A program made the translations under genes and the position numbers. The notes under the pieces are model-generated. The model saw nothing but the letters and a program-made list of their open reading frames with translations, did not search any database and was not told the DNA's origin. From Ignavibacteria bacterium (GTDB lineage: Bacteria; Bacteroidota; Ignavibacteria; Ignavibacteriales; Melioribacteraceae): a stretch of 36,897 nt of DNA. The stretch lies in NCBI GenBank assembly GCA_009773205.1, contig WPAE01000023.1, positions 1 through 36,897 on the forward strand, in the 5' to 3' direction. Positions 22,111 through 32,002 of the stretch are shown in pieces; positions within the stretch are counted from its first letter, which is position 1; each line of letters begins with the position of its first letter.

Positions 22111-22139
22111 TTTAAATTAATAAAGGTGGATTACGTAAG

Positions 22140-22208
22140 GGCGTCTCTAAAAACTAAAATTTCATCCCGCAGGGCGGGGCAAATGATATTGATATTTTTA
22201 GAGGCGCC
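22140..22208. repeat. Inverted-repeat element between regulator and dehydrogenase genes
   Basis: GGCGTCTCTAAAAA (22140-22153) and TTTTTAGAGGCGCC (22195-22208) are inverted repeats with one mismatch in 14. Inside is a second GC-rich hairpin, CCCGC with GCGGG. It begins 6 bases past the stop of the LytTR gene, so it may act as that operon's terminator; its nested form also suggests a small mobile palindrome. Confidence 0.65.
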
Positions 22209-22213
22209 TGTAA

Positions 22214-30702: not shown

Positions 30703-31713
30703 ATGATAGTAAACACAAGTAAAATTAAACTGCCTTCACCAATTCCAAGAAGGTTAAAATGGGGAGTAGCCGGCTGCGGAAATTACACAGTAGAATACTT
30801 TTTGCCTGCGCTCCAATTTGTTCAGAGAAGCAAAATTGTATCATTGTTCTGTAATAATTTGAATCGGGCAAAAGATATTGCTTCAAAGTTTAGTACAGCT
30901 AATACGTTTGATGATTATGATCTGTTTCTTAACAGCGATATTGATTCGGTGTACATATCTGGAGTAAATACTAATCATTACGAACTTGTTAATAAGGCTG
31001 CCATCGCAAAGAAAAATATTCTTTGCGAACTCCCAATTTCTGTTACGTTAGAACAAGCAGAAAAAATGATACAAGTCTGCAATGAGAACAAAGTACATTT
31101 GATTGTAAATTTCTTACATCGCTTTCATCCTCAAGTTCAAAAAGTTAGAGAGCTTCTAGAAAAACAAATTGTTGGTAAGATCGTTTCGATTTCTGCTTCG
31201 TATCATTCAGATTTTCCTCAAGCAAATATTTTTAGAACAAAAAAAGAATTGAGCAGCGGAGCACTGCACGATCTCGGCGCTCAAATGATTGATTTGTTAC
31301 ATTATTTTGGCGGCGAAATTGTTGAAACTAAAACATTCATTGATAATGTGGTTTACAAAAGTGAGATGGAGGATTTTGCCTCGGCATTGGTAAAGTTTAA
31401 AAACGGCGGCTACGGAAATTTTTCTGTTTCGTACGATTGCAAGAAACTAAACAACAGAATTGAAGTAGTTGGGCAATACGGTTCAATTATTATCGAGAAT
31501 TTTTTTGGAAAGAAAAACGCTGTTTCCAAACTGATTATTGACCTAAATGGTGAAGGCAGAAAAGTATTTCGCAAAAGAATGAACAACTTTGCTGTTATGC
31601 TTCGTTCCGTTCAAAAATCTTTTATAAAAAATGAATTGGCGCATCTTTCTACTGAAGATTTTTTAGCTGACTTTAAAATCATTGACGAAATTATAAAACA
31701 AAAAAACAAATAG
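30703..31713 (+). CDS. Gfo/Idh/MocA-family protein lacking both usual catalytic residues
   Basis: A 336-residue protein with the Gfo/Idh/MocA fold: an N-terminal Rossmann domain (LKWGVAGCGNYTVEYFLPAL) and a C-terminal beta-sheet domain. The normally strict EKP motif reads E109-L110-P111 (ILCELPISVTLEQAE), so the catalytic lysine is leucine, and the DxGxH motif reads D190-LGA-Q194 (GALHDLGAQMIDLL), so the histidine is glutamine. It begins one base after metF. It may bind NAD(P) and a sugar without classical dehydrogenase chemistry, or use another mechanism. The TAG stop abuts the repeat element at 31713. Confidence 0.88.
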   Translation: MIVNTSKIKLPSPIPRRLKWGVAGCGNYTVEYFLPALQFVQRSKIVSLFCNNLNRAKDIASKFSTANTFDDYDLFLNSDIDSVYISGVNTNHYELVNKAAIAKKNILCELPISVTLEQAEKMIQVCNENKVHLIVNFLHRFHPQVQKVRELLEKQIVGKIVSISASYHSDFPQANIFRTKKELSSGALHDLGAQMIDLLHYFGGEIVETKTFIDNVVYKSEMEDFASALVKFKNGGYGNFSVSYDCKKLNNRIEVVGQYGSIIIENFFGKKNAVSKLIIDLNGEGRKVFRKRMNNFAVMLRSVQKSFIKNELAHLSTEDFLADFKIIDEIIKQKNK

Positions 31714-31980
31714 AAACATCTGAAATATTTACGCTAAGTCATGGTGAGTCTTCGACACAATCACTGCCTTCGCAGCGATTGGCTCAGACTGACATCCAGT
31801 ACTCAATATTTTTTTGTCATGGTGATCATTCGGCAAGCTCATGACATGGCTTGTCGAACCATGACACTACAAACGAAATTGCCACACTTTCTGCCTCGCC
31901 TTCGGCTCATCAGGCGGGCGACTGGCTCAGCTTGCCTGCTGCAAGCAGGTGTGACAATAGATTAATTATTCAGATGTTTC
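31713..31980. mobile_element. Non-autonomous (MITE-like) element with terminal repeats and target duplication
   Basis: GAAACATCTGAA (31713-31724) and TTCAGATGTTTC (31969-31980) are exact 12-bp terminal inverted repeats. The 5-bp direct repeat AAATA flanks them on both sides (31708-31712 and 31981-31985), as a target-site duplication would. Inside are palindromes: GTCATGGT (31816-31823) with ACCATGAC (31858-31865), and TTGCCACAC (31879-31887) with GTGTGACAA (31949-31957, one mismatch), the second enclosing the GCCTCG/GGCGGGC core seen also near 6106 and 25731. No credible coding capacity. It separates the metF-Gfo/Idh pair from ddl. Confidence 0.75.
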
Positions 31981-32002
31981 AAATAATTAAACGGAAATAT
32001 CA

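Follow-up and report, generated by a model that had tools for sequence, protein, structure and literature searches.

A probable IS5-type MITE family with a mosaic hairpin core in a Melioribacteraceae genome

Between the gene for a Gfo/Idh-type oxidoreductase and that for a D-Ala-D-Ala ligase (Ddl) in an Ignavibacteria bacterium of the family Melioribacteraceae lies a short palindromic sequence with matching ends, and the question it raises is whether this sequence was brought there by a transposase and, if so, by which one. The stretch of DNA analysed (36,897 nucleotides; hereafter the window) belongs to a 4.14-Mb draft genome of 476 contigs, referred to here as G000. A sequence-only reading of the window had proposed a MITE at this place, and we followed up that proposal using searches of the genome itself and of its relatives, comparisons of the individual copies, and folding predictions.

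The boundaries of the element could be read directly. The element proper spans window positions 31713-31980 (268 bp), with the left terminal inverted repeat (TIR), GAAACATCTGAA, at 31713..31724 on the forward strand, extending imperfectly to 31729, and the right TIR (TTCAGATGTTTC) at 31969..31980 on the reverse strand. The TIR is exact over 12 bp and imperfectly extended to 17 nt (88%), and the two copies of the target-site duplication, AAATA, occupy 31708..31712 and 31981..31985. The exact 12-bp inverted repeats, the 268-bp insert, and the AAATA on both sides were all read where the sequence-only reading had placed them, and the element is gene-free as claimed, with no ORF of at least 80 aa inside it. 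The same reading had the left end abutting the stop codon of the Gfo/Idh gene; the two are indeed adjacent, but the element overlaps the codon by one base, as the ORF ends at 31713 and its TAG stop consists of the TA of the left AAATA and the element's first base, G. Without the element and one AAATA, the Gfo/Idh reading would stop at TAA. A TAG stop of a neighbouring ORF formed from flank TA and the terminal G, as at window 31708-31713, is also found at two other places in G000 (C61:60767 and C132:133282).

Relatives show what the locus looks like without the element. The Gfo/Idh-Ddl gene pair is conserved across those compared, its genes lying 290 bp apart in G000 and 20-22 bp apart in G003 and G001; in G004 and G005 the distance is 27 bp. 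The spacer of G002 is 706 bp long and includes other coding sequence, and in two more distant relatives, G006 (122 bp) and G131 (115 bp), it consists of unrelated sequence. The element was absent from this locus in all seven relatives compared (five of the same genus plus G006 and G131), and the comparison that the sequence-only reading had suggested thus finds an empty site in same-genus G001, G003, G004, and G005.

The element is also far from unique in its own genome. Used as a BLAST query against G000, it yielded at least 60 pieces merging to 41 places, and a related copy used as a second query yielded at least 45 pieces, the union of both queries amounting to at least 53 places; these numbers are lower bounds, with 40 of 74 and 40 of 61 candidates scored for the two queries. 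One more two-ended copy (C155:30256) came from the TIR pattern only, which had 35 exact matches in G000 and 105 matches with at most one mismatch, vs 26 for a reversed-pattern control. From the fetched loci, 39 candidate TIR pairs were collected, and 34 two-ended copies of 102-327 bp were retained after five pairs (C371, two at C398, C459:32571, and C85) were removed as spurious by eye. In a search of 39 genomes, same-genus G001 and G003 gave 25 and 29 BLAST pieces, which are shorter versions, and zero pieces were found in same-genus G002, G004, and G005, although G004 has short elements with a similar TIR despite that result. Single BLAST matches in G020, G023, and G037 span only the region of an inner palindrome (X2, see below), and the exact MITE end sequence had no match in named genomes, a set that possibly does not include the window's own species. 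Two family pieces in opposite orientation, about 160 bp apart (C214:53106-53277 and 53435-53550; L016), possibly form a composite. The case that the sequence-only reading had set against its own proposal, a single-copy element at the same locus in all relatives, is therefore the reverse of what we found, the element being multicopy and the locus empty in relatives.

Target-site duplications recur with the copies. An exact 5-bp duplication flanks 17 of the 34 two-ended copies and is absent from the other 17, and 20 copies have one with at most one mismatch; exact duplications at other lengths were seen in 5 (2 bp), 2 (3 bp), 3 (4 bp), and 0 (6-9 bp) copies. Random re-pairing of the flanks of the 39 candidate pairs gave a mean of 0.67 exact duplications and a maximum of 5 in 2000 trials, and the 17 exact duplications are identical in the 39-pair and 34-pair sets. 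Nine copies from same-genus relatives divide into four with an exact 5-bp duplication (L047, L048, L053, and L067) and five without (L052 and L063-L066). A second family of IS5-like MITEs in G000, with GGGCACCTCTAAAAAT ends, served as an internal control: of its 13 pairs in 437 kb, 10 had exact 4-bp duplications, none had one of 5 bp, three had one of 2 bp, and one had one of 3 bp, so that two IS5-like MITE families of one genome leave duplications of different length, 5 vs 4 bp. A 71-bp MITE-like element of the GGGCACCTCTAAAAAT family lies in the window itself (22139-22209; ends GGGCGTCTCTAAAAAC.. and ..ATTTTTAGAGGCGCCT, GTAA on both flanks), and G028, G058, and G038 have transposase loci (L097, L099, and L104) that are bounded by GGGCAC(T/C)TCTAAAAAC and flanked by 4-bp duplications. 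A further abundant family occurs in G000 contigs C152 and C149 (L163-L182), e.g., at C149:7150-7285, with ends ATGAGCC.. and ..GGCTCAT and GCCTGCC-type palindromes inside.

An insertion sequence (IS) with such ends was found in relatives. A DDE_Tnp_1 search covered the own genome and five same-genus genomes, and a truncated (half) IS with the end GAGACATCTGAAAAATTC (TIR GAGACATCTGAA) stands at the start of contig 24 of G004; of the 164 genomes of the order, 20 (G004 among them) contain a match to the transposase fragment of this IS. The IS was found in G059, G116, and G079, with fragments in same-genus G004 and G001. In G059 it is complete (L086:1117-2316; 1200 bp), with TIR GAGACATCTGAA.., the two ends GAGACATCTGAAAAATTC and GAAAGCTCTGAAATAATT, and AAATA on both flanks, and its 330-aa transposase matches NCBIfam NF033581 (transpos_IS5_4) at 240 bits (cut-off 140) and lies above the cut-off also for Pfam DDE_Tnp_1 (PF01609) and DUF772. 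Over their full length, the G059 and G116 copies align at 86%. Among the four IS copies read at both ends, L086 alone is flanked by an exact 5-bp duplication, its AAATA; L087, L088, and L089 have none. The left TIR of the MITE has 11 of 12 bases in common with the IS left end, and each MITE end has 15 of 18 terminal bases in common with it; the longest interior word common to MITE and IS is 8 bp, so the link between the two is carried by the ends alone. The search for a transposase with the same termini and 5-bp duplications, which the sequence-only reading had proposed, leads by the termini to a 1.2-kb IS5-family element in relatives, with an exact 5-bp duplication at one of its four two-ended copies, and a terminal sequence that reading had not recognised is now matched to IS of the same genus, family, and order.

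In the G000 draft itself, no IS5_4 transposase was found, the best tblastn match having an E value of 0.0016 and 26% identity. The six DDE_Tnp_1 matches of G000 were considered as partners and set aside, with no TIR pair around any of them and isolated two-mismatch TIR matches in L077 and L083, and no IS protein was found in viral contigs. Two contigs of same-genus G001 break off in one and the other IS end (one matching at 84-89% over 95 bp, the other at 85% over 68 bp or 75% over 76 bp), which shows that draft assemblies can lose the IS body in gaps. We infer that the transposase gene was either lost from G000 or is hidden in an assembly gap, and that the IS5_4 lineage seen in relatives would have supplied the transposase for the MITE.

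Inside the element, where two further palindromes had been claimed, there are more than two: a 78-bp hairpin module and two outer hairpins with inserts, all placed on the forward strand. Module A (31738..31815), identified by module search and tandemly repeated in the C390 copy, is the 78-bp hairpin and holds a nested palindrome, CAATCACTGC..GCAGcGATTG. It is followed by hairpin H1 (GTCATGGT ... AACCATGAC; 31816..31865), here in its long-loop form and delimited by copy comparison and folding, and by hairpin H2 (CACACTT ... GTGTGAC; 31883..31955), delimited by copy comparison, which holds two extra modules. One of these, X1 (31890..31918), is in a short form here and is delimited by copies with H2 but without X1 (C155:30256 of type I; C1:87 and C61:128832 of type II), and the other, X2 (31931..31949), is the 19-nt palindrome CTTGCCTGCTGCAAGCAGG, delimited by comparison of filled and empty sites.

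Across copies, H1 and H2 are held in common between subfamily-specific ends and spacers, the H2 arms being CACACTTCGAC..GCTCAGTGTG or, in the subfamily with GAGACCTCTGAA ends, CAGACTTCGAC..GCTCAGTCTG. A fuzzy module search distinguished 28 architectures among the 34 copies, some of which differ merely because a decayed module fell under the search tolerance; C61:117462 matched no module and C18 only one. Long forms of H1 and H2 are present in both subfamilies, and four copies (C61:60767, C390, C155:57316, and C415) have ends from different subfamilies. The C390 copy (C390:1001-1327; L022, L156), with its ends of two subfamilies, contains three tandem 78-bp modules by reading and two by fuzzy search.

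Module X2 is present or absent at precisely one site: in one subfamily 19 copies have it and 6 lack it, in the other 2 have it and 8 lack it (counts that include hybrids and allow at most two substitutions). Allowing one mismatch, its first 18 bases were matched at 26 places in G000 and, elsewhere in the order, at 20 in G023, 3 in G037, and one in each of G020 and G131; G001, G003, G004, G059, and G116 had no match, and the reversed control gave none anywhere. In G023 and G037, X2 sits in unrelated hairpins (ATTCCCG^TTTTCACGGGAAT and ATTCCGAAACAAG^TTCGGAAT), empty versions of which were not seen in the few loci fetched, and a stretch of G023 (C3:107300-107772; L226) repeats CTTGCCTACTGCAGGCAGG, which is related to the 19-nt palindrome, head to tail in tandem. 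We scored whether 45 X2 contexts, not all of them independent, form a stem when X2 is left out; most were not above random positions (95% point 15, 99% point 19), seven scored at least 15, comprising five clear hairpins (L191, L219, L223, L211, and L224; 15-19) and two contexts in tandem X2 copies (L226), and L050, L230, and L209 scored 13-14. The notion that X2 always sits in a hairpin loop is unsupported by this test; the low scores of the MITE contexts are probably due to another module inside the enclosing H2. The inner palindromes may have been gained and lost through recombination between copies, through slippage, or by moving independently. A bolder idea, which we offer tentatively and consider rather doubtful, is that the MITE hairpins serve as landing sites for independently mobile palindromes of ~19-30 nt that are common across the order, each copy then being a nest of a DDE-moved carrier and tiny palindromes. 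Small dispersed repeats of cyanobacteria, reportedly described by Elhai and colleagues in 2008 as very short palindromic repeats inserted in other repeats, offer a parallel to the 19-nt unit, there in another phylum and with another sequence.

The reading we favour, and regard as very probable, is that the feature is a non-autonomous MITE with a mosaic hairpin core, moved in trans by an IS5-family DDE transposase (NCBIfam IS5_4). Such an enzyme would act on the 12-18 bp terminal repeats and make staggered cuts 5 bp apart, the insertion between the oxidoreductase and ligase genes leaving the AAATA duplication, and hairpin units of the core would be gained, lost, and exchanged between copies. 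The MITE proposed by the sequence-only reading is borne out in each of its general traits: the element is multicopy, bounded by TIRs, flanked by 5-bp duplications, non-coding, and missing from the site in same-genus relatives.

A stationary intergenic hairpin of regulatory or terminator-like function, with AAATA repeated by chance, might be suspected from the strong predicted folding of the element on its two strands (z -6.3 and -6.5) and from where the copies lie. Counted with a single ORF threshold and with flanks that reached 4 kb unless a contig end came first, 11 of the 34 copies were placed at -3 to +8 nt relative to the stop codon of an ORF with at least 100 codons, as compared to 6.4% of 41288 intergenic control positions (one-sided binomial p 5e-6, with copies treated as independent); six were inside a called ORF, all 17-84 nt from one of its two ends (C393, C155:81997, C1, C18, C61:117462, and C152:209418), and none was deeper in an ORF, though the same caller marks 89-92% of the sampled sequence as coding. 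This count supersedes one using ~600-bp flanks and unequal ORF thresholds, which had put 8 of the 34 copies near stops and none inside ORFs. Such clustering may come from selection or from insertion being favoured at TA-rich targets where ORFs stop. Against a stationary hairpin stand the at least 53 dispersed places, the matching duplications at half of the two-ended copies, and the empty sites in relatives; moreover, no terminator-like site was found in the element, promoter-like sites were at shuffle level (one vs 1.0 in shuffles), and a search of Rfam up to E = 1 had no match. As an account of the element's origin, this explanation is contradicted by the data, and we give it very little credence, though the inserted element may have a regulatory side effect on ddl.

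The palindromic, mosaic interior, together with three Y1_Tnp (PF01797) matches in G000 (C49:9174, C242:17340, and C361:25994; L160-L162), could instead suggest an array of REP/BIME/REPIN-type palindromes that a Y1 (RAYT-like) transposase mobilises. REP and REPIN sequences are RAYT-moved palindromes without ends of the TIR-plus-duplication kind, however, whereas here conserved outer TIRs and 5-bp duplications define the ends and point to a DDE enzyme, and in relatives the same ends bound an IS that encodes a DDE transposase, which leaves a Y1-moved array highly improbable. Somewhat less remote, yet still unlikely, is that the mosaic interiors are mainly assembly chimeras of similar repeats in a 476-contig draft: several pieces do lie at contig ends (C380:1, C421:1, and the ends of C465 and C365), but the 17 copies with matching flank duplications are each joined to one site, even if such a copy may hold a swapped interior, and copies in G001 and G003 have the same core with other loop contents.

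The element is ordinary in kind. Non-coding and 268 bp long, the element falls within the 50-1000 bp of bacterial MITEs, its TIR recurs across copies, it has target duplications, and it is multicopy and absent at orthologous loci. Type II MITEs are those with similarity to an IS limited to the TIRs, according to a review (PMC10969869), and here relatives carry an autonomous IS5-family element that has the same TIR, with the similarity confined to the ends; an autonomous element in the same genome, which the definition used does not demand, was not seen in the G000 draft, where an assembly gap is possible. The family is thus a new IS5-type, type II MITE family with an unusually mosaic core, no earlier description of it having been found in the literature among the matches listed, and it now has assigned ends and a likely transposase. 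Beyond this, one genome offers a pair of IS5-like MITE families with different duplication lengths, and in ~50 related copies one can trace at individual sites how tiny palindromes are gained and lost, a matter relevant to the spread of very small repeats.

Among known systems, the MITE termini resemble IS5-type TIRs of Porphyromonas and Neisseria, e.g., that of ISNme1 (GAGACCTTTGCAAAA), and judged by TIR the closest printed relatives are BrickBuilt/MITEPgRS and ATR/ISNme1 (PMC4596501). BrickBuilt and MITEPgRS/MITE464 of Porphyromonas gingivalis have TIRs like those of ISPg1/ISPg9 (IS5 family), and BrickBuilt, with 19 elements described, is likewise a bacterial MITE with an IS5-type TIR, no transposase remnant, and a repetitive interior (PMC4596501). 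The same source gives the BrickBuilt TIR as GAGACCTTCGCA, vs GAAACATCTGAA/GAGACCTCTGAA here, an interior of 23-nt tandem repeats (41-nt in MITEPgRS) vs mosaic hairpins here, and inconsistent target duplications in BrickBuilt/MITEPgRS (CT, GAAA, AAAAA) vs 5-bp ones here (PMC4596501). The ATR element of Neisseria meningitidis is likewise a type II MITE whose IS5-family parent, ISNme1, was proposed on TIRs alone; its host is of a different phylum, and the ISNme1 TIR differs from ours at several bases, a comparison of ends and not of interiors (PMC4596501). Tn3-derived TIMEs (PMC4133298) are similarly non-autonomous, are close to our element in length at 262 bp, and have duplications of 5-6 bp and mosaic derivatives, but they differ in having 38-bp Tn3-type inverted repeats and mosaics built with a recombination module or plasmid segments rather than nested hairpins.
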